DNA of 64,000 nucleotides. Origin: Saprospiraceae bacterium. GTDB lineage: Bacteria > Bacteroidota > Bacteroidia > Chitinophagales > Saprospiraceae. Position 1 is the stretch's first letter; every line of letters starts with the position of its first letter. Positions 4,302-20,103 of this stretch are shown here, piece after piece. The notes below the pieces were generated by a model. It ran no database searches and was not told where the DNA came from. It was given only the letters and a program-made list of their open reading frames with translations. The stretch is taken from NCBI GenBank assembly GCA_019187225.1, contig JABAQQ010000033.1, positions 63,875 to 127,874 on the forward strand. The letters are read 5' to 3'. Both the position numbers and the translations under genes were made by a program.

Positions 4302-4378
4302 CCCTTTTTAGGCGTGAAATATGTCAGAAATGCGAATGCAAAGGAGCGCACGAAAAAATTATCGGACCCGGAGAGTAG

Positions 4379-4974: not shown

Positions 4975-6165
4975 TCACATTGCCCCGTTCAATATCTTAT
5001 TCCAATACAACCACGGCAGGATATAGCGCTTCAATATCCACATCGTCCAGCGTTCTTTCGACTGGTCGAAGGGAAACGTCTCTGTCGGTTTGTTGTCGTA
5101 ATCGAACTCGGCGAGCATGAGTTTGCCGTAACCCGTAACGATGGGGCATGAACTGTAACCGCTGTATTTGGCGGTCGGCATCTGGCCTGCCATCACAGCG
5201 AGCAGGTTTTTTACGAGGACGGGCGCTTCCTTGCGCACGGCGGCGCCGGTTCTGGAATTGGGCAATCCCGCAGCATCTCCCAGCGAAAATATATTCGGGT
5301 ATTTGTTGTGCTGAAGCGTGTATTTATCCACGTCTACCCAGCCGGCTGCGTTGGCGAGCGGGCTGCTGCTGATAAAATCCGGGGCGCTTTGCGGCGGCGT
5401 CACGTGCAACATATCGAAGTGGACGGTTTCTTCCGACACCGAACCGTCGGGCGCGGTTACTTTGAATGTGGCCTTGTGGGCAGGGCCGTTCACCCGGATC
5501 AGGTCGTGTTTGAAATGGGTGTTGATGCCATAGCGTTCCACCACTTTCCGGAGCGTTTTGGCGTATTTTTCAATGCCGAAGATTACGCCTCCGGCCGTCC
5601 AGAATTCCACTTTTACTTTGCCGGCGAGACCGGCACGGCGGAAATAATCTGCTGCCAAATACATGATCTTCTGCGGAGCTCCGCCGCATTTCACCGCGCC
5701 GCTGGGCGCCGTGAAAATAGCTGTGCCTTCTTTCAGATTCTGGAGGCACTCGAACGTGTAGGGTGCGTATTGAAAAGAATAATTGCTGCAAACTCCGTTC
5801 TTCCCCAGCGTTTCGGGCAGGCCTTCCACCTGGCTCCAGTTCAGTTGAATACCGGGACACACAACGAGGTATTCATATCCAATGGTTTTGCCGTCGCGGG
5901 TGGTTACGGTATTTTGCTCCGGCTGAAAAGTCGCGACGGCGTCTTTTATCCATTCGGCGCCTTTCGGGATAAAGTCCGCTTCATTCCGGACGGTATCGGT
6001 GATGTCATATGAGCCACCCCCTACCAGTGTCCATGCAGGTTGGTAGTAGTGTTTGTCAGAAGGTTCTATGATACCGATTTGGAGTTTCGGGTTTTTCCGC
6101 AATAATTTGGCGGCAGTGGAAAGGCCGGCGTTGCCGCCGCCGACGATAAGAATCTGGTATTTCAT
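4975..6165 (-). CDS. sqr: Sulfide:quinone oxidoreductase-like FAD flavoprotein (type II-like)
   Basis: A flavoprotein of 396 residues. The start at 6165 (MKYQILIVGGGNAGLSTAAK) puts the Rossmann FAD motif GGGNAGLS at the N-terminus; the longer upstream frame adds no conserved sequence. Catalytic-type cysteines are visible in the contexts GVCSNYSF and VKCGGAPQKIMYLAADYF; the latter matches the CxGAPQKIMYL motif of mitochondrial-type (type II) sulfide:quinone oxidoreductases. The family oxidises sulfide to sulfane sulfur and reduces membrane quinone at the inner membrane surface. A remnant of a YeeE-like sulfur transporter lies just upstream on the other strand, which fits an older sulfur-detoxification cluster. 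Family assignment is firm; the exact SQR type is from motif memory. Confidence 0.8.
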   Translation of the reverse strand: MKYQILIVGGGNAGLSTAAKLLRKNPKLQIGIIEPSDKHYYQPAWTLVGGGSYDITDTVRNEADFIPKGAEWIKDAVATFQPEQNTVTTRDGKTIGYEYLVVCPGIQLNWSQVEGLPETLGKNGVCSNYSFQYAPYTFECLQNLKEGTAIFTAPSGAVKCGGAPQKIMYLAADYFRRAGLAGKVKVEFWTAGGVIFGIEKYAKTLRKVVERYGINTHFKHDLIRVNGPAHKATFKVTAPDGSVSEETVHFDMLHVTPPQSAPDFISSSPLANAAGWVDVDKYTLQHNKYPNIFSLGDAAGLPNSRTGAAVRKEAPVLVKNLLAVMAGQMPTAKYSGYSSCPIVTGYGKLMLAEFDYDNKPTETFPFDQSKERWTMWILKRYILPWLYWNKILNGAM

Positions 6166-6245
6166 TGAATAGTCGTTTTGTAACAGCGCAAAGCTACGCC
6201 TGTGCCTTGCCTTCATTATTGAACAATTGTCACACAAGGCGATGA

Positions 6246-6401
6246 TAATTATCAGCATCCGGCTGGGCCCTAGCGGGCGCTTGTCCGGCGCCCATGTTTA
6301 TCCTGCTGGGCAGCGGATACACGGTGCTGATTGTGTACCTCGTCTCTGCCATGACGGGCACCTATTTGTACGGGATTTTCCAGAAAAGATTGTCGCATTG
6401 A
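6246..6401 (+). pseudogene. Remnant: C-terminal end of a YeeE/YedE-family (DUF6691-like) transporter
   Basis: The frame from 6246 to the stop at 6399-6401 reads GWALAGACPAPMFILLGSGY followed by a second hydrophobic helix and ends in LYGIFQKRLSH. This matches the last two helices of the small YeeE/YedE sulfur-transport relatives, with the conserved GACP(G/A)P motif. There is an in-frame stop at 6243-6245 and no usable start for a complete protein; about two thirds of the gene is missing. Such genes often sit next to sulfide:quinone oxidoreductase and rhodanese genes in Bacteroidota, so the location beside sqr is meaningful. The frame is too short and unstarted to be predicted by standard gene callers. 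Confidence 0.7.
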
Positions 6402-6430
6402 CGGAGTGGAGTGGGTTCAATTGCCCCCTC

Positions 6431-9400
6431 TCAAGTCGAATGGTTTGATGGGTGAGCGGCGTTGCCGTGCTGTTCCCGCCATTTCAGGGGTGTCAATCCA
6501 AACTCTTGTTTGAATATTTTGCTGAAATAACCAGGATCACTGAAACCGGAATAAAAAGCCACCGCCGTTATGCTTAATTCGGGGTTCAACAGCAGCGATT
6601 TTGCCTTATTCAAACGAACAGAGCGAATGAATTTATTGGCGGAAATGCCGGTCAGGGCGGAAAGTTTGCGGTGTAGTTGAGGATGGCTCAGGCAAACTTC
6701 TTTACAAAGGATTTCCACTGTGAACGAATAATCGTCTAAATGCGCCTCCACCACTGCGCGTACTTTCTGCACGAAAGCGTGTTCAACGTCGCAGGCAGGA
6801 ACGTCGTTTTGAGGGTCGCTTCCTTCTCTCAGGCCTGCCAGAGCGAGGTAATGTTGCTGCAATTGTTGTCGCAATTCCAGCAGTTTTCTGATGCGTATCA
6901 TCAGTTCCTCTTTGTGAAAAGGTTTCATCAGGTAGGCGTCGGCGCCATGCCCCAGGCCTTTTAATTTACTGTCCGCGTCCGCTTTGGCAGTGAGCATGAT
7001 GATGGGGATATGGCTCGTCCTTTCGTCTTTTTTCAACACTTCGCACACTTCGAAGCCGTCTTTGCGCGGCATCATCACATCGGTCACAATAAGGTCGGGG
7101 ATAATGTCGAAAGCCATCGTTTCGCATTCCCGCCCGTCTTTGGCAATGGCGAGGCGATAATCGCCCGACAGACATGAGGCCAGGTAAGCGACCACATCGG
7201 CATTGTCCTCGGCGATGAGCACGAGCGGCTTTTCGGCGGATGCCTGATTGGCAATATATGAAGCGGGACTTACGACCTCAACTTCACCGGATTTCCATTG
7301 CCATTCATTTCCGTTGTCCAATTTCATTTCAGCCGTTTGCAGCACCGGCAGTGTCACTGTAAACTCAGTTCCCTTGCCCGCTGTACTATGGACGCTAATA
7401 CCGCCATCCATCAGTTTGACCAATTCTTTCACCAGCGCCAGACCAATGCCCGTCCCTTCGCCATGCCGGGTATGTGAGTCACCCACCTGGTAAAAGCGGT
7501 CAAAAATATTTGCAAGATGCTCCTCCGGAATGCCGACGCCCGTATCCTTTACTTTTATCACGAGTGTCTGATTGCTCCCGCCTTTGCCACTGTTGCTGTC
7601 GCTGCTCAGTGAAAAGTAAACCTGCCCGCCTTCGGGGGTGAATTTGATGGCGTTCGACAGCAGGTTAGAGACGACCTGCTGCAACCTTTCCGCGTCAAAA
7701 TCCATCGTAAGTGTCTCTATATCATTGAGAAAATGAATCCGGACGTTCTTGCTTTTGGCGAGCGAGTGAAAACTCTCGGCGAGGTATTTCAGAAAATTAA
7801 CCACGTCGCCTTGTTGGGGGTGTAGGGACAATTTGCCGCTTTCTAACTTGCTCAGGTCGAGCATTTGATTCACCAAATTGAGCAGGTTTTGTCCATTGCG
7901 AATGATCATGTCCAACCCATAGCGGAAATGCTCTTTGGGGTTGTCGAGTACTTGCCGCGCCATGCCGAGGATGACGGTCAAGGGGGTACGGAATTCATGC
8001 GTGATGTTGGTGTAAAGACGTGTTTTTACCGCATCGAGTTCTTTGAGGCGTTCCGCTTCGCGGTGTTCCAAATCGAGTTGGGCTTTCAGTTGCCAACGGC
8101 GTTTGCGCCAATTGTAGGCGGCGCGAAGAGCAGCCACTGTCAACGAAAAATACAGAACGTAAGCCCACCAGGTGCGCCACCAAGGGGGCAGCACTTGAAA
8201 GCGCCACTCCAGTGGCAATTCGGCGTAATGGCCGTCGCTGTTCAGGGCCAGCAGTTGGAACGAATACCGCCCCGGTGGAAGTTGGGTGTAGCGAACATAG
8301 CGCCGGTCGGTTTCAGCCCAATTTTCTTCGTAACCTTTTAGCCGGTAGCGGTAAACGATTTTTTTCGGCTCAAAAAAAGCGATGCCGGAAAACTCAAATT
8401 CGACGACGTTTTGGTCGTGTTCGAGCCGAAGCGGGCTTGCCAGGCCGAATGAATTTCCCTCGAACAAAGCCTGTTCGTTCGCTTTCACCGAAATCAAATA
8501 AGGCTTGGGCAATTCGCGGTTTTCCGTCAGGCTGTCGGGGTGGAAAATGGCGAAGCCGTGCCGGTAGCCGAGCAGCATTTCGCCTGTGGTCAGCAACTCG
8601 AGGCAGGAAAGCGAGAGGTTGAAACCGTCGCCGATTTCTTCGTTCATCACCTGCAACCCCACCGCCTCTCCGAAGAGCCTGAACGTGCCTTTTTGGGGGT
8701 CGAACATTTGAAGTCCCGCTTGCGTCACCGCCCAGATGCGCCCCCGGCGGTCTTTTTTCAACGCCCACATTTTGTTGCTCAAAGAGCCGTTTTGCGCCTC
8801 GAAACGCCGGATGACGCCATTTTCAGGATGTTCGGGGTCAACCATCATCAGGCCGCCCACCCGAATATCGGACAGCCAGATGTTGCCCTCGTCGTCTTCC
8901 TCGAAGTCTCGCGGAAAGTCGGCGGTCATGGGTTCGCCGGGGCGATAAGGGACGCGAAAAAGGCTGTCTTTTTGCGGGTAATAGACTGAAAAACCCCTTC
9001 CAGAGAGCCAGAAATTGCCCCGGCTGTCGCAAAATGCGAGCGGCGTGCCGTTGAGATACCGCCCTTTCAAGCAATCGCGGTATTGGCCCGTTTTCACATC
9101 AACTTTGTAAAAACCGTCGAAACGGCTGTTTACCCAGAGATATCCCTCGCGGTCTTGCACGCAAAAACCCAACTGCATTTTTGCGGCAAACAAATCCTCC
9201 AGCAAAGGCAGGTGGACCAGCCGCCCGCCCCGCACTTCGAAAATGCCGCCGTCGCCCGCCGCCAGCAGGCGGCCGTCGTTCAGGCGCATCAGGTTGGCAG
9301 GCGCCCAGCGGCGACTTTTCGGGTGGCGCGGAATGGCCTCGAACCTGCGGCTTGCGCGGTCGTAGTCGTAGATGAACTTGCTGAAAGTAAATCCCAGCCA

Positions 9401-10534
9401 AAAGCGGTTCTTTTCCTCTTTTTCAAGAACGCAGTGCAAAATGTCAGGCGAGCCATCCGCGTCGGGGACGAAATAGTGATTTTCAACGGTATATCTGCGA
9501 AAGTCGTAGAGCAAAAGCCCTTCGGTGCAGCCCAGCCAGAGATGCCCCGGCGCACCCAACAAGTTTTTGGATTCGCTCCCCGTGTTGAAGCGACTGGGAA
9601 AAAAATCCGTCACCGAATCGTTGCGTGTATCAATAGCCACTATGCCATCGTCGGTCGCTCCCCAAATCGTCGTGGGCGAGCGGGGTTGAAAAACTCCCAA
9701 TTTCATCGGGAGATTTGCCCAATGAGGGTTTTTGTAATCTAATGGGCGGAAAGTTCGCTTGGAGATGTCATAAACTGTCCCGCCATCTCGCCAGGTGCTA
9801 CCTAAGTAAACTTTATCCTTTGTCGGGAAAAGCGCCGTGAAATTGAGCGAGACCAGCGTGCCGTCGGGCGGGCGTCGGGCGGGAAAAGTGTATTCGCCCG
9901 TCGCCGTGTTGAAACGTGCCAACCCCAGGTTGAAAGCCAGCCACAGGATGGAGTCTTTCGCAGCGTCCTGATCGATTTGGTAAATCGTCGGGTAGTCGCG
10001 AATCAGGCCATGCCCTGCATCAGGCGGCATCGGAAAATAGTGAAGCGCGGTGTCGAGTTTTACCAGACCGAACCCCATCACGCCGAACCAGACATCGCCC
10101 CGGCGGTCTTTGAAAACAGATTTGCAGATACCGCCTGCCTTGTCCGGCTGGCCTTTTTCCCAGAGGATGTAGTCGGCAAAGGTTTCCGTTTTCAAATCGA
10201 GCCGGCTAGCCCCGGCATGAGTGGCCAGCCAGAGTTCCTCCTTTTCCCTGTCTAAAAAAATATCGCTGATTTGCCCCTCGTCTATCGCCGAAAAAGTAGT
10301 TTTGGCGTACCTTACTTTTCTGAAAAAAGCCCCATCGAAGCAAAACAGCCCCCGGTTGGTGGCGAGCCAGACGAAGCCGTTGTTGTCTTCCTCGATTTTG
10401 AAGATGTACTCGAATTCCTTGCTCTCGAAAAGGATGGGTTGGGGAAAATTCTGCGCGGAATGCTGCCCGCACACAAAAGCGCAGCACCCGGCGAAAAAAA
10501 CGAAAAGCAAAAGGCAGCGGCAAGGGTAAATCAT
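6431..10534 (-). CDS. Hybrid two-component system protein (one-protein sensor kinase and AraC-type regulator)
   Basis: A protein of 1367 residues from the ATG at 10534, chosen because it gives a clean signal/TM sequence (MIYPCRCLLLFVFFAGCCAF). Order: two-component-regulator propeller repeats (for example FVWLATNRGLFCFDG and DVWFGVMGFGLVKL) over about 25-700; a Y_Y_Y sensor domain (YRYRLKGYEENWAETD) about 730-790; a TM helix; HisKA with the phosphoacceptor His846 in ITHEFRTPL; HATPase with N and G boxes (NLLSNAIKFTPEGG, GTGIGLALVKEL); a receiver with phospho-Asp1152 in TDVMMP; and a C-terminal AraC HTH. All catalytic residues are present. In Bacteroides such proteins sense glycan breakdown products in the periplasm and switch on neighbouring utilisation genes. 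Here the nearest SusCD pair is about 20 kb away. It follows the aspartic protease gene on the same strand with a gap of about 60 bp. Confidence 0.93.
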   Translation of the reverse strand: MIYPCRCLLLFVFFAGCCAFVCGQHSAQNFPQPILFESKEFEYIFKIEEDNNGFVWLATNRGLFCFDGAFFRKVRYAKTTFSAIDEGQISDIFLDREKEELWLATHAGASRLDLKTETFADYILWEKGQPDKAGGICKSVFKDRRGDVWFGVMGFGLVKLDTALHYFPMPPDAGHGLIRDYPTIYQIDQDAAKDSILWLAFNLGLARFNTATGEYTFPARRPPDGTLVSLNFTALFPTKDKVYLGSTWRDGGTVYDISKRTFRPLDYKNPHWANLPMKLGVFQPRSPTTIWGATDDGIVAIDTRNDSVTDFFPSRFNTGSESKNLLGAPGHLWLGCTEGLLLYDFRRYTVENHYFVPDADGSPDILHCVLEKEEKNRFWLGFTFSKFIYDYDRASRRFEAIPRHPKSRRWAPANLMRLNDGRLLAAGDGGIFEVRGGRLVHLPLLEDLFAAKMQLGFCVQDREGYLWVNSRFDGFYKVDVKTGQYRDCLKGRYLNGTPLAFCDSRGNFWLSGRGFSVYYPQKDSLFRVPYRPGEPMTADFPRDFEEDDEGNIWLSDIRVGGLMMVDPEHPENGVIRRFEAQNGSLSNKMWALKKDRRGRIWAVTQAGLQMFDPQKGTFRLFGEAVGLQVMNEEIGDGFNLSLSCLELLTTGEMLLGYRHGFAIFHPDSLTENRELPKPYLISVKANEQALFEGNSFGLASPLRLEHDQNVVEFEFSGIAFFEPKKIVYRYRLKGYEENWAETDRRYVRYTQLPPGRYSFQLLALNSDGHYAELPLEWRFQVLPPWWRTWWAYVLYFSLTVAALRAAYNWRKRRWQLKAQLDLEHREAERLKELDAVKTRLYTNITHEFRTPLTVILGMARQVLDNPKEHFRYGLDMIIRNGQNLLNLVNQMLDLSKLESGKLSLHPQQGDVVNFLKYLAESFHSLAKSKNVRIHFLNDIETLTMDFDAERLQQVVSNLLSNAIKFTPEGGQVYFSLSSDSNSGKGGSNQTLVIKVKDTGVGIPEEHLANIFDRFYQVGDSHTRHGEGTGIGLALVKELVKLMDGGISVHSTAGKGTEFTVTLPVLQTAEMKLDNGNEWQWKSGEVEVVSPASYIANQASAEKPLVLIAEDNADVVAYLASCLSGDYRLAIAKDGRECETMAFDIIPDLIVTDVMMPRKDGFEVCEVLKKDERTSHIPIIMLTAKADADSKLKGLGHGADAYLMKPFHKEELMIRIRKLLELRQQLQQHYLALAGLREGSDPQNDVPACDVEHAFVQKVRAVVEAHLDDYSFTVEILCKEVCLSHPQLHRKLSALTGISANKFIRSVRLNKAKSLLLNPELSITAVAFYSGFSDPGYFSKIFKQEFGLTPLKWREQHGNAAHPSNHST

Positions 10535-10594
10535 GGCTTCAAAATGGCTTCCGGCAAATTTAGAAGCCACTCGCCCTGCCAACAATGACTTGCA

Positions 10595-11527
10595 TCACCG
10601 CTTTCCCTGCTTTTGCACGGCCGCCAGTTGCTCCTGCACGTAGGCGGCATCCCAGATGTAAATTTCTTTTTTCCGAAAATTGATGGCTGTGCGGTATTGG
10701 CTCAGAAATTCATAGCCCATGATGCCGTCGAGGTCGGGGCCGGGCAGGTCGCGGTTGAGTTGTTTGAGCGAAATAAAAAGCACGCTCAGCGCCGGACAGC
10801 GAATGTTGCGCACGCGCACGCTGTCGAGTTGCGCGCCCGACGCGACGAGGGTGTCCGTTCCGAAACTTGCCAATGATCTTTTCCCGCCGTTTTTCAGACA
10901 CGATTCGATGTCCGCCTTTTTGTTTTCCTCCAAAACATTCACACCCGCGCCGGAATCAAGCCCCACGCGCAGGTTTTTTTCGCCGACGCGCATTTCGACC
11001 GACGGCATGCAGCCTTTTTTTTCGAAAGACAAAGTGTCGCGCGGCGGGTCGTGCAGCGCCCTGCCTTGAAGCGGCTCGCCGTTTTTATTCAGGCGGTAAA
11101 TGGTAAATTCTCTGAAAACGTAGTCGAACACGACTTCGCAGTCTTCAAAAACCTTGTTGCCGATGGCGCCCAAAATAGGCAGCCCCATGTAAGCTTCGAT
11201 GGCCGTGAAGTCAATTATTTTGGCTTCCGTGTCTTTGACGAAGCCTTCGATGTTCAGCCGGACGAACTTCATCTGCACGTCGAGCGCCTCGGCATTGACG
11301 CCGTAAAAAGTCTTTTCGGAGGTTTCGCCTTGAAAATACAAGTCGTTCAGCGTGAGGTCGGGCGTGCCGGTATCGAGGATGAAAAAGCCTTTTTTCCCGT
11401 CGGCCTCGGCCTGAACTACGGCGAGTTTGTTCACGCAGCCGAAGGGGACGACTGTCACGTCGGGGTCGGCGGCAAGCACAAATTGGAAGGGCATGGCGAG
11501 CGCCATTGCCAGTTCAAGTAATTTCAT
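10595..11527 (-). CDS. Secreted retropepsin-like aspartyl protease family protein
   Basis: A protein of 310 residues with a signal peptide (MKLLELAMALAMPFQFVLAA). Two aspartic-protease-like halves are seen: FILDTGTPDLTLN near residues 50-60 and VGLDSGAGVNVLE near 188-200, each carrying the D-(T/S)-G catalytic triplet. The flanking glycines and the phrase LDGIMGYEFL near 265, matching the 'GlLGydfL' motif, support a two-lobed pepsin/retropepsin-like fold. Homologues in Bacteroidota are annotated as aspartyl protease family proteins and are largely uncharacterised. It lies upstream of the hybrid sensor gene on the same strand and could be cotranscribed with it; a regulatory link is speculation. 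The start at 11527 gives an ideal signal peptide and is preferred. Confidence 0.8.
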   Translation of the reverse strand: MKLLELAMALAMPFQFVLAADPDVTVVPFGCVNKLAVVQAEADGKKGFFILDTGTPDLTLNDLYFQGETSEKTFYGVNAEALDVQMKFVRLNIEGFVKDTEAKIIDFTAIEAYMGLPILGAIGNKVFEDCEVVFDYVFREFTIYRLNKNGEPLQGRALHDPPRDTLSFEKKGCMPSVEMRVGEKNLRVGLDSGAGVNVLEENKKADIESCLKNGGKRSLASFGTDTLVASGAQLDSVRVRNIRCPALSVLFISLKQLNRDLPGPDLDGIMGYEFLSQYRTAINFRKKEIYIWDAAYVQEQLAAVQKQGKR

Positions 11528-11693
11528 GGGTGGAAAAATTTACGTTTTTAGGAAAAAAATTTCGACGGCAGGCTACCAGAGCCGGGGTCATTTTGGGGCG
11601 GATGACCCCGGCGGCTCTATCGTTTTCAATCAGTGATTTCACTCAAAGCAAGGTGGCTTTCGAACGCCCGATTTTTCAATCGAATCCTTCGGT
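11528..11693. other. Intergenic stretch between the lipoprotein and protease genes
   Basis: 166 bp with no coding frame that I can support. It contains the likely promoter of the protease gene and the downstream end of the lipoprotein gene. No clear terminator hairpin was found. Confidence 0.35.
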
Positions 11694-12485
11694 TCAATAC
11701 CACAGCCAGCCCCATGTAAAAATTTTGCCCTCTCCTTCAATAAACATACCCGAAGGGGCGTCGGGTGGCTGGCGTTTGACGTGCAACTGTTGGCGGAGGA
11801 TGCCTTCCGAATCTTCGAAGTCGCCCGTGCTGTAGCTCCAGCATAAGGGGTCGCCATCATTTGCATTACAGACCTTGATATTGTATTCAAGTATCTGGTA
11901 TTCAGGCGTAGATGAAAATGTTGGCACCGAATAGGGACGGTATTGCAAGATATGCTCGTCTTTTTCGTAAGTGCCGTTCCAGCGGTCAAAACCGCCACCG
12001 CAAATGAACCTCAGCCAGGTGTTCCAAATCTGTCCGTATCCCGTCATGTGGCCGTCGCCGCCTCCACCCCTTCTGACCGGCGGAACAATGGGCGAGCCAG
12101 GGGGTATCCCGGGGCAGTCCGCGGGGTTGTAGCATATCTCGGCCGTTGGGGGTGTAGTGCAGTTGGAAAGCACCGGTAGATTATTGGATGTTATGTCGCC
12201 CCAGCCGAAAAACGGCCGCCACTTTTTCGGGCGCTTGCCGTCGTGCCCGCCCGGCTGCGGGTTGGCGGGGTTGTGGGTGGGCTTGCTGGCCCAGAAGGCG
12301 GCAATTTGTTCCGGGGTCAACAATTGTGCGATTTCTTCGGGCATTTCTTCACCGTCCCGCGAGTCAACTTTTTGGTCGGAAAGAGGCGGCGAAGGTTCGT
12401 CATTTTTGCTGCAACTGAATACGAGCAGGGCGGCTGCCAAGCCAAACATGGCCAGGGAGCCGAAGAGAAAAATCTTCTTTTTCAT
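11694..12485 (-). CDS. Hypothetical lipoprotein
   Basis: A protein of 263 residues. The ATG at 12485 gives MKKKIFLFGSLAMFGLAA followed by a lipobox LLVFSC, so the mature protein would begin at that cysteine and sit in the outer membrane or periplasm. The start 75 bp upstream would bury the signal peptide and is rejected. The middle is rich in Pro and Gly with several cysteines (LSNCTTPPTAEICYNPADC), and the C-terminal half is rich in Trp and Tyr. No known domain was recognised. It stands alone, transcribed toward the protease gene. A function cannot be suggested from sequence or context. Confidence 0.7.
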   Translation of the reverse strand: MKKKIFLFGSLAMFGLAAALLVFSCSKNDEPSPPLSDQKVDSRDGEEMPEEIAQLLTPEQIAAFWASKPTHNPANPQPGGHDGKRPKKWRPFFGWGDITSNNLPVLSNCTTPPTAEICYNPADCPGIPPGSPIVPPVRRGGGGDGHMTGYGQIWNTWLRFICGGGFDRWNGTYEKDEHILQYRPYSVPTFSSTPEYQILEYNIKVCNANDGDPLCWSYSTGDFEDSEGILRQQLHVKRQPPDAPSGMFIEGEGKIFTWGWLWY

Positions 12486-12574
12486 GACAAAAACATTGTT
12501 AGTGGTGAATGAATAATTTGATGTGCGTCTGAAACTTTTGCACCCCCCAAAATTCACCACCTTCGTTTCCTTCG

Positions 12575-12623
12575 CGCTCCGACATATCTTTCATTCGATT
12601 CGACATTTATTGCATTTTGCCTC
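12575..12623 (+). repeat. Intergenic repeat, copy 1 (about 49 bp, upstream of the TIR gene)
   Basis: Shares the blocks CGCTCCGACA, ATCTTTCATTC, CGACATTTATT and CATTTT in the same order and spacing with 20638-20685. Only about seven positions differ over about 49. Both copies lie upstream of plus-strand genes. It may be a shared promoter region or the end of a small mobile or recombination element. Confidence 0.5.
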
Positions 12624-12718
12624 GAAAAGCCATGCTGATGCAGGACACGACGACCTGTAACTGTGCACTACGAGAAATAAGGATTAACTTCGCTGCCGGT
12701 AACCAATGCCGAATCAAT

Positions 12719-13774
12719 ATGCAAGCCCCGGTCAAGATATTTGTCGTATATGCCCATGAAGACAAGCCGGTACGCGACAAACTGTTGCGCCAATTGCGAC
12801 CGCTGGCCGAAAAAGGCGAGATCGAACTCTGGAGTGACCATGAAATCAAACCAGGTGCACTTTGGGACGATGAAATCCGCCTGCGCCTTGTCGAATCCGA
12901 AATCATACTGCTGCTTGTCAGCGACGATTTTTTCGCTTCCGACTACATCCGCCGGGTGGAGCTGCAAATGGCGCTCGATCTCCACGCACGCGGCCAAACG
13001 AGGCTTGTGCCCGTCATCGCCCGGCACTGCGGCTGGGCCGATATACCTGCCCTGAACCGCCTGCAGGCGCTCCCACCGGAAGGGCGGCCGGTGCTGTCGA
13101 AGGAATGGGACAGTGCGGATGAGCCATACCTGAAAATTTATGAAGGCGTGAAGGCCGTCGCCCGCGAAATCGGCCAAAAACAGCAAAAAGTTGCAACCAA
13201 CGCGCGCGGGGTTTCCGAAATTCCCGTTCGGCAAAGCAGCCGAAAATGGTGGTTGGTCGGGGTCGCAGCATTGACAATTGCCGTTTGGGGTTTAACAAAA
13301 TGGTTTCCCCCGGAAAATGAGACAGCTGGGCAGCCTCAAAGCGAAATTTCCCAAACGGTTTTGCCAAAAACGGAAAATTCGGCATCGAACCAGCCCTCCG
13401 AAAAACGCGAAATTGCTTCCCCGGGAAAAAAAGGCGAACCGGAGGCTGGAAAAAACGCCCCTGACAAAACCGTAGCCCAACCTGCTTTGCAAAAATCGAA
13501 ACCGCCGCAAGCACCCGTCCGCAAGCCGCCAAAAGATTCGGTTTCGCAAGCCGCGCCCCCGCAGCCTTTGTTCGACCGAAAATTGGAAACCGCCGAAGGC
13601 ATGACCCGAATCGTCAAAGGCAATCAGGTGAGTTTTCTGAATTCGGAGGATAAATGGATTGGCCGTTGGTTCGATTACGCCGAGAATTTTCACGACGGCT
13701 TGGCCTACGTCAAAGCGGGAAAACGGTATTTCTGGATTGATAAATTTGGAAACTGCGTGAAGGACTGCGAGTGA
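12719..13774 (+). CDS. TIR-domain membrane protein with a C-terminal WG-repeat-like region
   Basis: A protein of 351 residues from the ATG at 12719; the first ATG 102 bp upstream adds unconserved sequence. Residues 4-150 form a TIR domain: beta-strand A (KIFVVYAHEDKPV), box-2-like region (IELWSDHEIKPGALWDDEI), strand D (IILLLVSDDFFAS) and YIRRVELQ, where Glu81 matches the catalytic glutamate of NAD-cleaving TIRs. A single TM helix (residues 178-196, WWLVGVAALTIAVWGLTKWF) is followed by a Lys/Pro/Gln linker and, from about 300, a segment like one or two WG repeats (FHDGLAYVKAGKRYFWIDKF). Predicted topology: TIR in the cytoplasm, WG-like region outside. A secreted caspase-like gene follows 82 bp downstream. 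NADase or cyclase activity is plausible but untested. Confidence 0.85.
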   Translation: MQAPVKIFVVYAHEDKPVRDKLLRQLRPLAEKGEIELWSDHEIKPGALWDDEIRLRLVESEIILLLVSDDFFASDYIRRVELQMALDLHARGQTRLVPVIARHCGWADIPALNRLQALPPEGRPVLSKEWDSADEPYLKIYEGVKAVAREIGQKQQKVATNARGVSEIPVRQSSRKWWLVGVAALTIAVWGLTKWFPPENETAGQPQSEISQTVLPKTENSASNQPSEKREIASPGKKGEPEAGKNAPDKTVAQPALQKSKPPQAPVRKPPKDSVSQAAPPQPLFDRKLETAEGMTRIVKGNQVSFLNSEDKWIGRWFDYAENFHDGLAYVKAGKRYFWIDKFGNCVKDCE

Positions 13775-13856
13775 GATTTTAATTTGTTATTGGCCATTAA
13801 ACAATTGGTTGTAAATAATTTATGACCAAATAGCCAATGACTCAACAAATAAAATT

Positions 13857-15122
13857 ATGCGCCACTATCTACTATTGCTCGTTTGCTGCGCCGCAGGGCT
13901 GCTCCCGGCGCAATCCACGGAAAAACGCATCGCCCTCGTCATCGGCAACGCCCGCTACGCGGCCAACCCTTTGACCAATCCGCCGAACGATGCCCGCGAC
14001 GTGGCCGAAACGTTGCGCCGCGCCGGGTTTTCGGTCACCGAAAAACACAACCTCAACTACGTTGACTTCAACAATGCCATCACCGATTTCACCCGAAAGT
14101 TCACTGACCCGAACATTGTGGCGTTGATTTTTTATGCCGGACACGGTGTCCAGGACAACGGCGAGAACTACCTGGTGCCCGTGGATGCCGACAAGCTCGC
14201 CGACGACGAGTTGCTGCATCGCTGCGTCAGTCTTGCGGGTATCGCCTCCAAAATGGCATCGGCGAACAACCACATGAACATCGTCATCTTAGATGCCTGT
14301 CGCAGTTATCCCGTCCAAAGGCGGGTACGCAACGTATTGTCGGGACTTGCCCAATTCGACGAACAAATGCCCGAATCGCTGGTTGCCTATGCGACAGCCC
14401 CGGGGCAAATCGCACTCGATCAAAACAACAAGCCCAACAGCCTTTTTACCGAAAACCTCCTGAAATACATCGTCCAGCCCGGAATGGAGATCAGCGAGGT
14501 GTTTTTCGAAGTTCGCCGCTCCGTCAAGGAACAATCAGACGGCAAGCAAATCCCGACCTTGGATAATCGATTGACGCGGAAGTTTTACTTTTTCAAGGCG
14601 CCGGAGCCCGCCGCGGCGACAACCACGCAGCCCGCCGCCGTGCCGCCCATGAAGTCGAAGCCGCCGAAAAACCCCGAGTCATGGGAGCATTGCGTGGGCA
14701 TCAGTTATTCCCGTTTCGGCCAGGAACCGAATGGAAGTTATCTCAAATCCGCCCATTTCAATGCCTACCAAGCCTACTACATGCTGGTGAAAAGAGCAGG
14801 AGGTTTCGTCTCCCTCGGCGTATATTCCTGTAGTTATGACCTCGCCCAAAGTGGCGGCTACCAATATTCGCGAGCCATGGCTACCATTGGGCCGGGTATC
14901 AGGTTTTGGGGGAAGCCGCCAAGTTTCAGGCTATATGGTTTTGCGGGTGTTGCACTCTTTATGAACAATCCTGATGGGGAGGTATTTGGTAAAAAGGTTT
15001 CCGATATAGGTTTTGAGTTTTTAGTGGTAGGCGCAGTCGGCCAAATGGGCTTTAAAGTGGGGTATTTGAGCGCGTTCGAAGAGGCGAAAGGATTTGCGGT
15101 GGGGATGCAATATTGTTTTTGA
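13857..15122 (+). CDS. Secreted caspase-like (peptidase C14) protein with a C-terminal beta-barrel-like domain
   Basis: A protein of 421 residues. Signal peptide MRHYLLLLVCCAAGLLPAQ. Residues about 21-250 are a caspase/metacaspase catalytic domain: strand 1 RIALVIGNARYAANPL, catalytic His96 in IFYAGHG, and catalytic Cys148 in IVILDACRS. Both catalytic residues are intact. A Pro/Ala/Thr linker (about 255-275) leads to a C-terminal domain of alternating hydrophobic strands ending in a terminal Phe (FAVGMQYCF), which looks like a small outer-membrane beta-barrel. The protease would thus face the periplasm or the cell surface, unlike cytosolic defence caspases. It follows the TIR gene by 82 bp in the same direction. 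The substrate is unknown. Confidence 0.85.
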   Translation: MRHYLLLLVCCAAGLLPAQSTEKRIALVIGNARYAANPLTNPPNDARDVAETLRRAGFSVTEKHNLNYVDFNNAITDFTRKFTDPNIVALIFYAGHGVQDNGENYLVPVDADKLADDELLHRCVSLAGIASKMASANNHMNIVILDACRSYPVQRRVRNVLSGLAQFDEQMPESLVAYATAPGQIALDQNNKPNSLFTENLLKYIVQPGMEISEVFFEVRRSVKEQSDGKQIPTLDNRLTRKFYFFKAPEPAAATTTQPAAVPPMKSKPPKNPESWEHCVGISYSRFGQEPNGSYLKSAHFNAYQAYYMLVKRAGGFVSLGVYSCSYDLAQSGGYQYSRAMATIGPGIRFWGKPPSFRLYGFAGVALFMNNPDGEVFGKKVSDIGFEFLVVGAVGQMGFKVGYLSAFEEAKGFAVGMQYCF

Positions 15123-15131
15123 AGAAGCACA

Positions 15132-15350
15132 ATGGTTGTTTCCCTTGCCCATCACGGCGATCCAGAATTCCTGGGTGACCGGGAATTTGCCGATGTAAAA
15201 ATCGCCCACGGTGACTTGGTGGGCCGGCCCTTCCCAGCCCAGCATTTCCTCGTATTCGTCACTGCCCATGAGAAAGGAGCCGCCTGGGACATGGATCATT
15301 TCCCCGGAGAAGTTGGAGGGTAGGGTGTCGAGGTAGGGGGATTTGGGCAT
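15132..15350 (-). pseudogene. Remnant: N-terminal part of a formylglycine-generating-enzyme (SUMF1)-like gene
   Basis: From the ATG at 15350 the frame reads MIHVPGGSFLMGSDEYE, then HQVTVGDFYIGKFPVTQEFW and AVMGKGNN, the classic N-terminal motif run of SUMF1/FGE-sulfatase-domain proteins. The homology stops about ten bases from the stop codon of the caspase gene; the frame then runs antisense into it without conserved sequence. SUMF1 domains have about 230-260 residues, so about two thirds are missing. SUMF1, TIR and caspase domains are commonly neighbours or fused in Bacteroidota, so this may be part of an older, larger locus. No function is expected. Confidence 0.8.
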
Positions 15351-15455
15351 GCTGGGTATTATTTTTCAATACCGGAACAATAGCGAGTTTGACTCCGCAA
15401 ATTTGTAAAAACGGTTTTTGGTCGGCAGTGATGAGAGTCACCAATAACCCCAATA

Positions 15456-16802
15456 TCAATTGCGGCCAATTTCGCGCCAAGATGCACCATCATAGAACAG
15501 TCGCAGCGATGCACCAGTGGTAAAAGTCTCTTCTGCAGGGGTTCTGAGCTGAATATTTCCATCTCCTACAATAGTGGTGTTGTCATTATCAAACAATAGT
15601 ATCAATTCCTGCGCTTCATGGCCATCTGTAATATGGCGAATAGTAACAGGATATGAAAAAGCCATTCTATATATAGGCTGCTCACCCGCGGTAATTGTAT
15701 TTTCCTCCGAAAGGTGATCCTGAGTGCCGATGATGCCCCTCGTGAGCACGAAAGGGCCTTGTGCGGGAAGCGCTTTCAGTGCCCGGATATAAATATGTTG
15801 TACTCCAGTGCTCGGAACTTGAATAATTTGCTCATTTGCCCCCCATATATTTACGTCTTCCAGGCGTATTTCTCGCGCGCCTTCGTTGATTTTAACGGAA
15901 CAAGAACCTTCAACACCACTGGCAATTGTTCCTCCGATTACCCGAACATTACGAGCAAATTCACCAATGTTAAGCCCAATACCGCCTATGTTGGTAGGGG
16001 ATGAGATTGCAGGCTCTGTTATAAGTACGTTCGAAATGTTTCCAATATCCATTTGTATCGCCGTCGTTTCGCCTTCGAACCCGATACCGTTGAATTGAAT
16101 ATTTCCACCTAAGGCCCCCGAATTGAGTCGGACCCCAAAACCTTCATCGCATACGCCAATACGTGTTCCTATAAAGACCATATTTCCTCCCATCACGTCC
16201 ATCCCATTTGTAACGCTATAATCGATATTCGGTACTTTAAGATTGATTATTGTAACGTGCGATCCTTGGAGGTATAATCCAAGACCTCCTCCGTTCACTC
16301 TAACGCTTTCAAGAACACAATTCAGGAGCCCCTCAAGATGCACATTGGTGGCGCTTCTGCCCACGCAATGACAGTGGACATTTCGCATTCTGAAATCAGT
16401 CAGGCGCATCCAGTCTGTAGGTGACAGATGCCGCAGGACGGGGCCATCATTGGAACGTGCAAGTTTCAAATCTTCAATGCCGAAAAACTGCGCCGGCATA
16501 TCAGGGGCATCATCGAAGGTTATTATTGGAGCATCTTGGGGTAGAGCCCCTGAAGCAGTGATTTCAGCGGCGTACCCGCTGCCGCGCAGGATGAGCGGAG
16601 CAGCGCGCGGCAATCGAATCGATTGATCAATGACGTATTCACCAGGCGGAAAACAGATGATGCCGCCCCGACGCGATGCCACGTCAACGATTGCATCCTG
16701 AATGGCCTCGCTATCTATAGTGTGCGCATCGCCCCTAGCGCCATAGTTTTTTACATTCACACTGCATGTAGCCAGTGGGTTTTGTTTATGGGAGTGTTTC
16801 AT
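15456..16802 (-). CDS. Right-handed beta-helix protein (pectate-lyase-superfamily/Pectate_lyase_3-like)
   Basis: A protein of 448 residues. The N-terminal region VNVKNYGARGDAHTIDSEAI, followed by FPPGEYVIDQSIRLP, is the hallmark of the Pectate_lyase_3/glycosyl-hydrolase-28-like beta-helix. It continues with short repeated strands of Asn/Gly-rich sequence (for example GLGLYLQGSHVTIINLKV), consistent with helix rungs. The last part (SLRLFYDGASWREIGRN) resembles the tail of phage tail-spike or baseplate-associated beta-helices. No signal peptide is visible, so export by a non-Sec route, or use within a particle, is possible. It is the last gene of a three-gene minus-strand unit, 49 bp after the 1083-residue protein gene. 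The block appears lower in GC than its neighbours. Carbohydrate cleavage is unproven. Confidence 0.72.
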   Translation of the reverse strand: MKHSHKQNPLATCSVNVKNYGARGDAHTIDSEAIQDAIVDVASRRGGIICFPPGEYVIDQSIRLPRAAPLILRGSGYAAEITASGALPQDAPIITFDDAPDMPAQFFGIEDLKLARSNDGPVLRHLSPTDWMRLTDFRMRNVHCHCVGRSATNVHLEGLLNCVLESVRVNGGGLGLYLQGSHVTIINLKVPNIDYSVTNGMDVMGGNMVFIGTRIGVCDEGFGVRLNSGALGGNIQFNGIGFEGETTAIQMDIGNISNVLITEPAISSPTNIGGIGLNIGEFARNVRVIGGTIASGVEGSCSVKINEGAREIRLEDVNIWGANEQIIQVPSTGVQHIYIRALKALPAQGPFVLTRGIIGTQDHLSEENTITAGEQPIYRMAFSYPVTIRHITDGHEAQELILLFDNDNTTIVGDGNIQLRTPAEETFTTGASLRLFYDGASWREIGRN

Positions 16803-16851
16803 AATCGATGGAACTTTGAGTCGTTAGATAATATTGAATATGCTTTTGTTC

Positions 16852-19800
16852 TCAAACCTGGCCGCGTTTCTGCCGAAGTTTTGCCTGATCCACCTTGTTT
16901 GGGCGGATTCGCATAACCCGGACACCCCGCTGATCCCCGGTCAATATCAGGAAGTGTTTTTTGTATTTAGAAAACCTGCCGGACAAGGGGATGAATTCGC
17001 TCATCCACGCCTCTAAGTTCCATTTGCCAGTGACCTCAAAATTCCCGGCCTTAGAAATATCTACCGACTCCACGTGTTTATTGTCGTATATTAATATTGC
17101 AGAGGTCATGGTAAGGAATGCATTTTGTATTTCCTTCCTCGCGGGATAGCATCCAACCGTTTTGGGTTGTTCGGGCTTCGACAGGTCCAGCACTTCCATG
17201 CCACGCTTGCCAAACAGGTACAGGTTATTCCCTTTTTGCAAAGCTTGATTCGCCTTAACCCGGATAGAAATGCTGTTGCGCTTTTTAGGGTGTTCCGGAT
17301 CAGCGAGGTCGAGAATATGGATACGGTTGCCTATGCCATAAACTATGCTGCCACGATTATTGGCAGTATGAAACGTCCTGATCCCGGCAGGAAGAGATAA
17401 TTTTCCAATTATCGAGGGTTTTGCCGGATTGGTCAGCCCATATACGAACAATCCATTCTTGTTGACCAGGAGATATTTCCCAAAAGCGGCCACAGTGGTC
17501 GCTCCGGCCGCACTGCGCACCAGGGCCACTCGTTTAGGCTTTTTCAAATGATTCAAACTAATGACCTCCATTCCTTCGGGTCCGACCGCATAAGCGTGCT
17601 CGCCAACGACTGCCAGTTCGCCGAGGCGCTGGCGGGAGACGTACAGGCCATCTTGCTGAACGAGCCAGCGGCGCATGGTGACCCTGGACGTTGTTGCCCC
17701 GATAACCGATCGTGGCATCTTAGCATGCAAGGAATATTCATTTTCTTCCCTTATGGGCGTCAACAGCGTTCGAGTTGGGGAATGCGAAAGATTGGTTGCA
17801 ATAAGCTGACTATTTACACCCCTTACTTCGAATCTCACGTCAAATGGAACGTCAAGGAAGTCGATCTCCCAGAGATCGACGCACCGGCACGCCGGACTAT
17901 GCAGGGGCGGACAGCAATCTTCGCCACCCAGAAAGGGAAGTAGCCGTTCTACTTCATGAACATCTAAAATGCGCCCATCCGTATCCTCGACCCTGTCCCA
18001 GTCCGCGTCTGCGCAAGCTTTATCCCTATCGAAGCCCATATGGTGTACTACCCCCCAAGGGTCATCTTCGTGGGTAGTCACTTGGCCTGAGATGCGTATT
18101 TGCTGCTCTTCACCGCCATTGGTCACCATGCGCATGGTACCATTGTATACCCGATTCTTACCCCAAGGCGGTGAAAAGGTCACGCTGACGATGGCCGTGC
18201 CGGCGGCAAAGATGCCAGGATTCGAAGCCTTGAAAACGTCCCCCAAATCTTCCGATAACTCAATTGAACAAATCTCCATGTGCCCAGGCCCCTCGTTAAC
18301 GATTTCAAGATCAAGAACAACAGATCGATCGGGAGGATGACTACATCCTGACCATTCATATTCAATGTGCCCAAAATCGAGCTCCTCGGCTGTAGGTCCG
18401 AGCGCTACGGGATTAAAGTTCGCGTCGAGGGTGACCGATTTATTCTGAGCGTCATTTGGGATGTCCAGCAAAGCAAGATAAACACTGCCAGGATCTCTGC
18501 TGCATTCTATTTCAATATCGATCTGTCTGTTGGGACGGAGCACCTGACCGGTTCCATCGTCCAGGAGCTGATTTGGGGAGATGACTCTAAAGAAGCCGGC
18601 GTCTTCTGCACCGCCATCCGGGTGCTTGCGAATACTTACAGGACAGAGATGTAGGTTTTTACTACCTGTATTGCGAACCTGAAATCGACTTATAGAAGGC
18701 CGTTGAGGGTCAAAACAACCTGTGGCGAATAACAACGTGTCCGGAGCGCTGATAGAGCGCTCGGCGGGCCGAACACTGCTTGATCCACGCAAGACAAGTC
18801 CTTCGGGTCGGATCTCTACCGCTTCCGCCACCAGCCTTCCCAGAGGATCGTCGCGCTCTCCAAAACGGGTAGGGAAATCTTCTGGATCGAGACTGCCAAT
18901 TGCCGGAATCTCTACATCAAACAAGTCCATTAAAGCTTCAGTAGGATCGGGATCGGCAACATGCAGCAAGGGTATACTTATGTCCGTGATGGTATATTGC
19001 CCCTCCAAACGGCCGTTTTCAATTCTCATTGTTATATCAGCTTCAAACTCAATTTCATAAAAATCATTTGGAATAAAAAATAACTCATCGGGTGTGCATA
19101 TGTAGATCGCCCCGCTGCCCCGCACGTTTATCACATTGTTCCGCAGCGCTTCCAGCTTAAGACAAAAAGATCTCCGGGCATCCTTGTATTCGCAATCTTC
19201 CGTCCCTTCGCCCTCTTTGTTAATGCCTGTGGAGGGTCGGCCCCGTAATACCGCATCTATAACATGCGCATCTAAGGCAATAGCCCAGTCGCTCCCGTCC
19301 AGAAAAACCTCCTCATAGTCGGCTTGGAAGGCATTTAGGTCTACCGCAGGTTGGCTTGGCAGGCCACACCGGTGAGGAATGAGGTTTTCGGGGCCGGCAA
19401 CCAGGGGGTCCGCATCTTGATCGACCTCCGGGCCAAATACCATAAGGTCTTCATCCTGAGATAATTGTACATCCAGACCCATGACAAGGCAGTTTTCCCC
19501 TAATGCTTTGACCTCGGGATTGCCATTAATTGTCAGGGCCAATATCGTATTGGTACGGCTAATCCCGGCTTCGTCCTGAAATACCTGCACCTTGTTGAGA
19601 AAATTTATTGGAAACGAGAAGCCGTCGCCTATAATGCCGCCAATTTCGGGTGGAAGTGAAGAAGTGTCCACACTGATCACGATCTGATCAAGGTCATCAT
19701 TGACTGAAACGAGCAATGGAAGTGGATCAATGGAAAATGAATGGAATTCCTCATAAAGCGTGCCAGGGGGAAGGTCGCGGCTCTCTTCCGCCTCCAATTC

Positions 19801-20103
19801 CAATTCACCAAGGCTCTTCCAACTACCCAATATATCAACTTGGGCATAAAGTAACCGCAGGTCCAGATTGATAAATACGGGTTCAGAAGGGGAATGCTCA
19901 AACGAGACATCTTCGATGAATATTCCTGCTCTTCTCACAGCCACGGGAATCTTCTCCTCCGGGTCGGAAGGATTAGGAATCAAGACTTCATTTGCCGCGA
20001 AGCAGCCCTGATCAATATCAATCAGCCTTTTGCGGAAGACTCTTAAAATGAAATCGGAGGATATCTCGATGAGGATATCCATTCCGGAGTTAAGTGCACT
20101 CAT
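16852..20103 (-). CDS. Large uncharacterised protein with Hydin/ASH-like and LVIVD beta-propeller repeats
   Basis: A protein of 1083 residues with no signal peptide. Residues about 1-480 are beta-rich and unrecognised. From about 480 to 720 there are ASPM/SPD-2/Hydin- or DUF1573-like Ig modules (LDFGHIEYEWSG, VNEGPGHMEICSIELSEDLG, VTFSPPWG). A short Cys-rich stretch (CCPPLHSPACRCVDLWE) follows. The C-terminal 300 residues carry LVIVD-type repeats (GMEVISLNHLKKPKRVALV, IHILDLADPEHPKK, MEVLDLSKPEQPKTVGCYP), expected to form a beta-propeller. It is nine bases downstream of the SpvB/TcB N-terminal fragment and upstream of the beta-helix gene. This suggests co-expression and possibly a role in a particle or toxin-like assembly. 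That role is inference. Confidence 0.6.
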   Translation of the reverse strand: MSALNSGMDILIEISSDFILRVFRKRLIDIDQGCFAANEVLIPNPSDPEEKIPVAVRRAGIFIEDVSFEHSPSEPVFINLDLRLLYAQVDILGSWKSLGELELEAEESRDLPPGTLYEEFHSFSIDPLPLLVSVNDDLDQIVISVDTSSLPPEIGGIIGDGFSFPINFLNKVQVFQDEAGISRTNTILALTINGNPEVKALGENCLVMGLDVQLSQDEDLMVFGPEVDQDADPLVAGPENLIPHRCGLPSQPAVDLNAFQADYEEVFLDGSDWAIALDAHVIDAVLRGRPSTGINKEGEGTEDCEYKDARRSFCLKLEALRNNVINVRGSGAIYICTPDELFFIPNDFYEIEFEADITMRIENGRLEGQYTITDISIPLLHVADPDPTEALMDLFDVEIPAIGSLDPEDFPTRFGERDDPLGRLVAEAVEIRPEGLVLRGSSSVRPAERSISAPDTLLFATGCFDPQRPSISRFQVRNTGSKNLHLCPVSIRKHPDGGAEDAGFFRVISPNQLLDDGTGQVLRPNRQIDIEIECSRDPGSVYLALLDIPNDAQNKSVTLDANFNPVALGPTAEELDFGHIEYEWSGCSHPPDRSVVLDLEIVNEGPGHMEICSIELSEDLGDVFKASNPGIFAAGTAIVSVTFSPPWGKNRVYNGTMRMVTNGGEEQQIRISGQVTTHEDDPWGVVHHMGFDRDKACADADWDRVEDTDGRILDVHEVERLLPFLGGEDCCPPLHSPACRCVDLWEIDFLDVPFDVRFEVRGVNSQLIATNLSHSPTRTLLTPIREENEYSLHAKMPRSVIGATTSRVTMRRWLVQQDGLYVSRQRLGELAVVGEHAYAVGPEGMEVISLNHLKKPKRVALVRSAAGATTVAAFGKYLLVNKNGLFVYGLTNPAKPSIIGKLSLPAGIRTFHTANNRGSIVYGIGNRIHILDLADPEHPKKRNSISIRVKANQALQKGNNLYLFGKRGMEVLDLSKPEQPKTVGCYPARKEIQNAFLTMTSAILIYDNKHVESVDISKAGNFEVTGKWNLEAWMSEFIPLSGRFSKYKKHFLILTGDQRGVRVMRIRPNKVDQAKLRQKRGQV

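Follow-up and report, generated by a model that had tools for sequence, protein, structure and literature searches.

Two-gene systems built around EACC1 consist of adjacent genes, one for a single-transmembrane (TM) component that protrudes on both sides of the membrane and one for a caspase with a variable C-terminus; the TM component can carry a fused EAD1 or EAD2 (PMC7159879, PMC8195603). In bacterial conflict systems TIR serves as an effector domain, and EADs are proposed to act, through homotypic contacts, as adaptors by which core components recruit effector or signalling domains (PMC8195603, PMC7159879). Here we describe a related but distinct arrangement in a 64,000-nucleotide stretch (the window) of contig JABAQQ010000033.1, from the Saprospiraceae bacterium assembly GCA_019187225.1 (own genome, G000): a gene for a TIR-TM-linker-WG protein that directly precedes a gene for an exported, paracaspase-like peptidase with a predicted outer-membrane barrel. 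A TM-WG protein adjoins this rare type of caspase in a second genome as well, with a different inner module. We propose, at a probability of roughly 0.4, that the two genes form a trans-envelope module in which signalling would run outside-in, from the tethered caspase and the WG tail to the cytosolic TIR domain.

The TIR gene (12719-13774) and the caspase gene (13857-15122) lie in this order on the forward strand with a gap of 82 bases, followed on the reverse strand by a remnant of a formylglycine-generating enzyme (FGE) gene. A preliminary description of this DNA had given the same coordinates and identities, and both were confirmed by open reading frames and Pfam searches; the matches for TIR, caspase and FGE are far beyond chance, and that for the WG tail, taken alone, is weak. 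Both reading frames of the pair are intact, as are both sets of catalytic residues. The features are as follows.

12719..13774, +, TIR-TM-linker-WG gene, 351 aa (open reading frame and domain matches)
12737..13066, +, TIR domain, residues 7-116, predicted cytosolic (PF13676, TIR_2, 4.4e-14)
12959..12961, +, Glu81, read from the sequence, within SDDFFASDYIRRVEL
13247..13306, +, single TM segment, about residues 177-196 (by eye; lines up in an alignment with the segment of EAD11-TM-WG proteins)
13559..13771, +, WG-like ectodomain tail (homology with the tails of EAD11-TM-WG proteins)
13775..13856, +, intergenic stretch, 82 bases, containing an AT-rich hairpin that reaches the caspase start codon (folding against shuffles)
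13857..15122, +, signal peptide-caspase-barrel gene, 421 aa (open reading frame, domain match, alignment)
13857..13910, +, signal peptide, residues 1-18, expected cleavage before Gln19 (by eye, LLPA before Q19; alignment)
13923..14588, +, paracaspase-like peptidase domain, residues 23-244 (PF00656, 4.1e-40)
14142-14144 and 14298-14300, +, His96 and Cys148, nearly invariant in a 22-row alignment
14670..15119, +, predicted 8-strand OmpA/OmpX-like barrel, residues 272-421, ending in GMQYCF (AlphaFold2 and sequence comparison)
15135..15350, -, FGE/SUMF1-type gene, 5' remnant that encodes about 72 residues (PF03781, 3.4e-12)

The evidence that carries the pairing comes from one relative in particular. 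The sole near-full-length match to the window caspase is the caspase of genome G010, which adjoins, on the same strand, a gene for an EAD11-TM-linker-WG protein. In this partner EAD11 (PF19964; 4.7e-13, 49.3 bits against a cut-off of 26) replaces TIR; its TM segment and linker are homologous to those of the window protein, as are the WG tails (9e-8 for the tail alone and 5e-13 from the TM segment to the end, by BLASTP of the two sequences) and the barrels of the two caspases (5e-11). The gene order is opposite, with the TIR gene first in the window and the caspase first in G010, where 386 bases separate the genes. Since both gene order and N-terminal module differ, the pairs are not merely one unbroken inherited stretch. 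A TM-linker-WG gene is the immediate same-strand neighbour in 2/2 barrel-caspase genomes, and when 20 enlarged caspase loci from relatives (L103-L122, of which L103 is G010) were examined through a tail-profile search of open reading frames and a listing of neighbours, such a partner was found in L103 only and in 0/19 of the others. The domains, the pairing in two genomes and the domain swap are thus direct products of computation, and we consider the pairing of barrel-caspase with TM-WG protein moderately supported. A link across the envelope, raised in the preliminary description, gains support from G010, in which the same kind of caspase adjoins an EAD11-TM-WG protein.

These counts have a defined scope. 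At E 1e-20 the caspase was found in 17 genomes, the own genome included, among 149 relatives, and related caspases in 45/398 genomes of the family. The enlarged loci represent 20 of the 22 non-own matches in the 149-relative search (L063 and L064 were left out), and loci first found in the 398-genome caspase scan lie outside this inspection of neighbours. In at least 5 of the 20 (L104, L109, L110, L121 and L122) the caspase sits near a contig end, so that one side is partly or wholly unseen, and in L117 and L120 the caspase, judged by eye, starts without a signal peptide. The 398 genomes were drawn from a larger family, and the barrel, tail and caspase scans considered up to 9, 8 and 4 candidates per genome, respectively, so that rare modules may be undercounted. 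Within these limits, any match to the tail was seen in 51 of the 398 genomes, and the full TM-WG part in four of them (G000, G010, G012 and G021), the rest having the tail end only. A tail scan of genome_contigs (84,980 species) returned three loci, on the contigs of G010, G012 and G021; the records (JALHPW010000159.1, JAFLBO010000011.1 and JAAFJN010000007.1) are metagenome-assembled genomes of Saprospiraceae or Chitinophagales. Plasmid records gave 269 with a match, 0 of which covered 80% of the query; ten of the 38 genera are named, and these ten are Proteobacteria.

Turning to the TIR-TM-WG protein, the TIR_2 match scores 53.5 bits against a cut-off of 28, and the PADLOC model ThsB1|ThsB matches the protein at 6.4e-34. 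Glu81, said earlier to be kept, is indeed present, at what we take to be the position of the usual TIR NADase glutamate. The TM segment, KWWLVGVAALTIAVWGLTKWF, has basic residues on its N side, which by eye gives an N-in orientation, and is followed by a Pro/Lys-rich linker. The tail stays below the cut-off of PF14903 (WG_beta_rep; E 0.0015, 18.9 bits against 25.6) and is hence called WG-like only. It resembles the last repeat of two WG-repeat proteins, L129 (6e-10) and L131 (1.2e-8), both with lipoprotein-like starts by eye; because of this similarity the tail probably lies outside the cytosol. The topology first proposed, with TIR inside and the WG-like region outside, is also the one predicted here. 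The TM segment is recognized by eye; a hydropathy scan at a threshold of 1.6 did not flag it.

The second protein has an intact, MALT1-like caspase domain in which fold and His/Cys dyad are present, and the 22-row alignment bears out the claim that His96 and Cys148 are kept (one row is an M48 protein and two are pieces of the interrupted G010 caspase). Gln19 is nearly invariant in the same alignment; its place after the predicted cleavage site fits the Q-rule of Bacteroidetes (PMC5837995). Asp45 and Asp146 are both kept as well. We take these two to be the acidic residues that select a basic P1 in MALT1-like enzymes, and given the Lys-rich linker of the TM-WG protein, cleavage of that linker by the caspase is possible. 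The signal peptide and barrel distinguish the protein from MALT1 paracaspase and the orthocaspases.

Both of these parts had been read from the sequence before, and structure prediction now agrees about the second. Modelled alone with AlphaFold2, the C-terminal domain forms 8 strands in an OmpA/OmpX-like arrangement (pLDDT 73.9, pTM 0.69); in the full-length caspase model the barrel part is unresolved and unusable, and the domain has no Pfam match. Searches of 198 relatives gave nothing clear besides G000, G010 and G033, four weaker matches (E 0.006-0.04) being taken as chance; the 398-genome barrel scan reported G000 and G010 (2/398), the G033 barrel being absent from that report, either because G033 was not among the genomes drawn or because of the limit on candidates, and found in a separate search. 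In G033 the caspase's barrel is carried by an unrelated peptidase, a secreted M48-like protease-TSP3-barrel protein (L150, G033:C288, 1969-3495), as expected for an anchor of exported peptidases. We regard the topology of the two proteins as moderately supported; for it, as for the outer-membrane barrel, the support comes from prediction.

The 82 bases between the genes fold into a hairpin of -19.5 kcal/mol (z -3.13, reached by 0/200 shuffles). Touching the caspase start, it could limit translation of the caspase. The repeat was considered as a mobile element and rejected: the genome holds no second copy, and 14 other partial matches are weak (14-27 bases). Promoters and terminators were not predicted above shuffles, although a pair of promoter-like sites that overlap each other lies between the two genes, and a Bacteroidota promoter pattern had no match.

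How might such a pair work? We infer an interaction between the two proteins, and with it a direction, a trigger, an outcome and a function of the module, along the following lines. The TIR protein would be a single-pass receptor of the inner membrane, with TIR in the cytosol and the WG-like tail in the periplasm, and the exported paracaspase-like peptidase would be held at the outer membrane by the OmpA-like barrel at its C-terminus. A periplasmic trigger, such as an entering phage, damage to the envelope or a protein coming in, may activate the tethered caspase or expose the tail; cleavage (probably proteolysis by the caspase) or binding of the WG tail or linker would then cluster the receptors, and the clustered TIR domains would cleave NAD+, leading to cell shutdown or death. 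In relatives, EAD11 on the same membrane part would recruit other cytosolic effectors. We favor the outside-in direction because the inner modules (TIR, EAD11) swap while the outer TM-WG part stays constant. A bolder and doubtful version is that the pair is a bacterial counterpart of a Toll-type transmembrane receptor, with a periplasmic caspase that acts on the ectodomain of the inner-membrane protein and so switches on cytosolic TIR or, in relatives, the effectors recruited by EAD11; the cell would thereby respond across its envelope to a threat met outside.

Several observations weigh against the trans-envelope proposal. Only two pairs are known, and in G010 an in-frame stop separates the His half of the caspase from the Cys half. 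Taken literally, with TIR as the partner, the neighbourhood does not recur: a TIR_2 match adjoins a related caspase in 0/16 other genomes, no second pair of TIR and barrel-caspase was found, and the TIR nearest to a related caspase (G044:C41) is 2.7 kb off with one gene between. The condition that the preliminary description set against its own reading, a pair never adjacent elsewhere, thus applies to TIR itself and does not apply to the TM-WG part, which adjoins the caspase in G010. The EAD11-TM-WG proteins of G012 and G021 (EAD11 assigned by alignment with the G010 protein) have no adjoining caspase, and their genomes gave no match to the window caspase at E 1e-20, and the TM-WG protein is therefore not dependent on the caspase everywhere. 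The intergenic hairpin may separate the expression of the two genes. As for the barrel, its model is based on three sequences, and a test for alternation of faces (amphipathicity) was not significant, the observed value being reached in 1631/5000 shuffles. Finally, EAD11 is named 0 times in the main text of PMC7159879 and PMC8195603, so that its adaptor role is assigned by analogy with other EADs; a literature search for it returned unrelated subjects only.

Part of this would follow if a TIR-TM protein and a secreted caspase, both common kinds here, simply lay side by side without a functional link. The own genome is rich in both, with 25 matches to TIR_2 at E 0.001, 23 of them above the cut-off, and 11 to caspase, and the frequency of related caspases in the family, the missing TIR neighbours and the caspase-free genomes G012 and G021 all sit easily with chance adjacency. 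What such adjacency explains poorly is that a rare barrel-caspase meets a rare TM-WG partner in 2/2 cases against 0/19 loci with other caspases, in pairs that differ in order and N-terminal module; we consider it unlikely, though it is to be taken seriously. Less probable again, and in our view rather improbable, is a role in surface or envelope physiology rather than immunity, in which the tethered caspase would process surface proteins and the TM-WG protein would act as an inner-membrane regulator or scaffold. Relatives do repeatedly have caspases that start like secreted proteins and that bear MORN-like, TSP3 or FGE parts (partly by eye), and the same barrel is found on the M48-like protease. 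Nevertheless, TIR and EADs are typical of conflict systems (PMC8195603, PMC7159879), and two secreted caspase-FGE genes of relatives (L122 and L118) carry variable repeats like those of diversity-generating retroelements (DGRs), a sign of a recognition duty.

The cut FGE gene raises the further question of whether the locus works at all. It ends near 15135, the contig holds no further FGE match, and the G010 caspase is interrupted, as might be seen in a decaying island, where the genes would be left over from an earlier conflict locus that was rearranged when the FGE gene was cut. With the reading frames and catalytic residues of both window genes intact, we think this quite improbable. Least probable of all, and barely credible in our estimate, is direct activation of the caspase by a TIR-made nucleotide, as in type IV Thoeris. 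The TIR gene does adjoin a caspase-type protease gene and its product matches ThsB1|ThsB, but the signal peptide and predicted barrel of the caspase speak against this, its Pfam matches include no further nucleotide-binding candidate, and a product made in the cytosol is not expected to get to it. The trans-envelope module remains the reading that we prefer.

The FGE remnant itself is real. It covers positions 4-77 of the 255 in the PF03781 profile; depending on the match the homology stops between residues 68 and 82. By eye it stops at residue 72, with 13 bases left before the caspase stop. Its best match among the open reading frames examined, the window region's own copies aside, is L083. 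The preliminary description saw in it an original third component of the system. This claim found no support, because the remnant lies on the opposite strand, FGE is abundant (22 matches genome-wide) and no relative with an intact arrangement was found, synteny of the flanks not having been searched. The remnant falls short of proof that a third component was lost and is at most a putative member of the pair.

FGE parts are instead of interest for the wider family of proteins, since they recur in relatives on TIR-TM proteins and on secreted caspases. A TM segment was flagged outside TIR in 8/28 TIR proteins of relatives close to the window TIR; TIR-TM-FGE proteins make up five of these eight (L068, L074, L076, L083 and L094), and L091 is a TIR-TM protein with a different C-terminal part. 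As TIR must be cytosolic to meet NAD+, the FGE parts of such proteins should lie outside. Given this recurrence, the window protein is, as judged by its domain composition, the variant with a WG tail in a class of TIR-TM-ectodomain proteins, of which the G010 protein represents the version with EAD11.

Some FGE-bearing genes also have DGR-like features. Here repeats were extended by a rule that admitted mismatches at template adenines only. In L122 (G086:C55, 306-1961, 2603-3328, 1830-1964 and 3351-3485) a secreted caspase-FGE gene resembles a DGR target: a reverse transcriptase (PF00078, 1.4e-15) lies downstream, and the FGE end differs from the template repeat by 22 mismatches, every one of them at a template adenine (87-100% in separate 80-base windows). 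Another gene for a secreted caspase-FGE protein, in L118 (G129:C18, 10093-11715, 11593-11708 and 12312-12427), has a variable/template pair with 13 mismatches, again all at template adenines; a small accessory-like gene is common to both loci, and tblastn found no reverse transcriptase in the 16 kb around L118. The own genome holds a further DGR-like locus (L181, G000:C21:38000-48000; 3323-4375 and 5390-8338, both on the reverse strand) with a reverse transcriptase (PF00078, 1.2e-19) and a gene whose product starts with a TIR match and ends in an FGE part; the 3' end of that gene forms a variable repeat with 19 mismatches, all at template adenines. Another own-genome cluster (L177, G000:C11:82000-97000) combines three genes, one for a caspase in which WD40-like repeats are seen by eye, one with a TIR match at its C-terminus and one for an FGE protein that by eye is NTPase-like, and resembles another conflict locus.

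Two other genes of the window may be mentioned. Adjoining the locus, 15456-16802 (-) encodes a pectate-lyase-like protein with a weak C-terminal match to a phage depolymerase (PF25692, 24.6 bits against a cut-off of 25). Farther away, the product of 24841-26703 (-) has a putative DinB-like region at its N-terminus, followed by about 10 copies, nearly identical, of a repeat of the type KAEGPKLTRAEILAKARAARAAK.

It remains to place the pair among described systems. The EACC1 (and EACC2) two-gene systems are the nearest description, as they too join a single-TM protein to a caspase with a variable C-terminus (PMC7159879, PMC8195603). The window caspase departs from them in its signal peptide and predicted outer-membrane-type barrel; it scores 60.7 bits against a cut-off of 140 with the NCBIfam model of EACC1-associated caspases (NF047832), and no EACC1 domain matched in Pfam or NCBIfam, the presence of an EACC1 model in those libraries being unchecked. 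Likeness to EAD-coupled effector systems (PMC7159879) lies in the replacement of TIR by EAD11 in the TM-WG proteins of G010, G012 and G021, with the difference that in these relatives EAD11 shares one protein with a TM segment and an outer tail. For CLec/FGE sensors diversified by DGRs, periplasmic sensing has been proposed (PMC10907252); FGE parts on TIR-TM and caspase proteins of this lineage recall them, whereas the tail in the window pair is WG-like, and a search of window positions 10000-20000 gave no variable/template repeat.

ThsA is an effector with a SIR2 or macro domain, and Pfam searches at E 0.01 of the pair and five other proteins from 10595-20103 found neither domain; the match to the ThsB model stands alone. 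With type IV Thoeris the locus shares a TIR gene that adjoins a caspase-type protease gene (PMC12847820). We nevertheless rejected membership: signal peptide and predicted barrel would place the caspase beyond any TIR-made nucleotide, and a caspase predicted to be exported is unlikely to be switched on directly by a nucleotide of the cytosol. The preliminary description was therefore right that the cytosolic TIR-to-caspase scheme cannot apply directly. A literature search found no title or abstract start on a TIR-TM protein adjoining an exported barrel caspase, and the pair may well be a fresh variant among membrane-associated conflict modules, with few examples and a putative function. If the proposal is true, envelope sensing would be coupled to TIR output through an exchangeable cytosolic module and an exported caspase partner, and outside-in TIR signalling in bacteria would become testable with two genes, in contrast to type IV Thoeris, where a small molecule carries the signal inside the cell.

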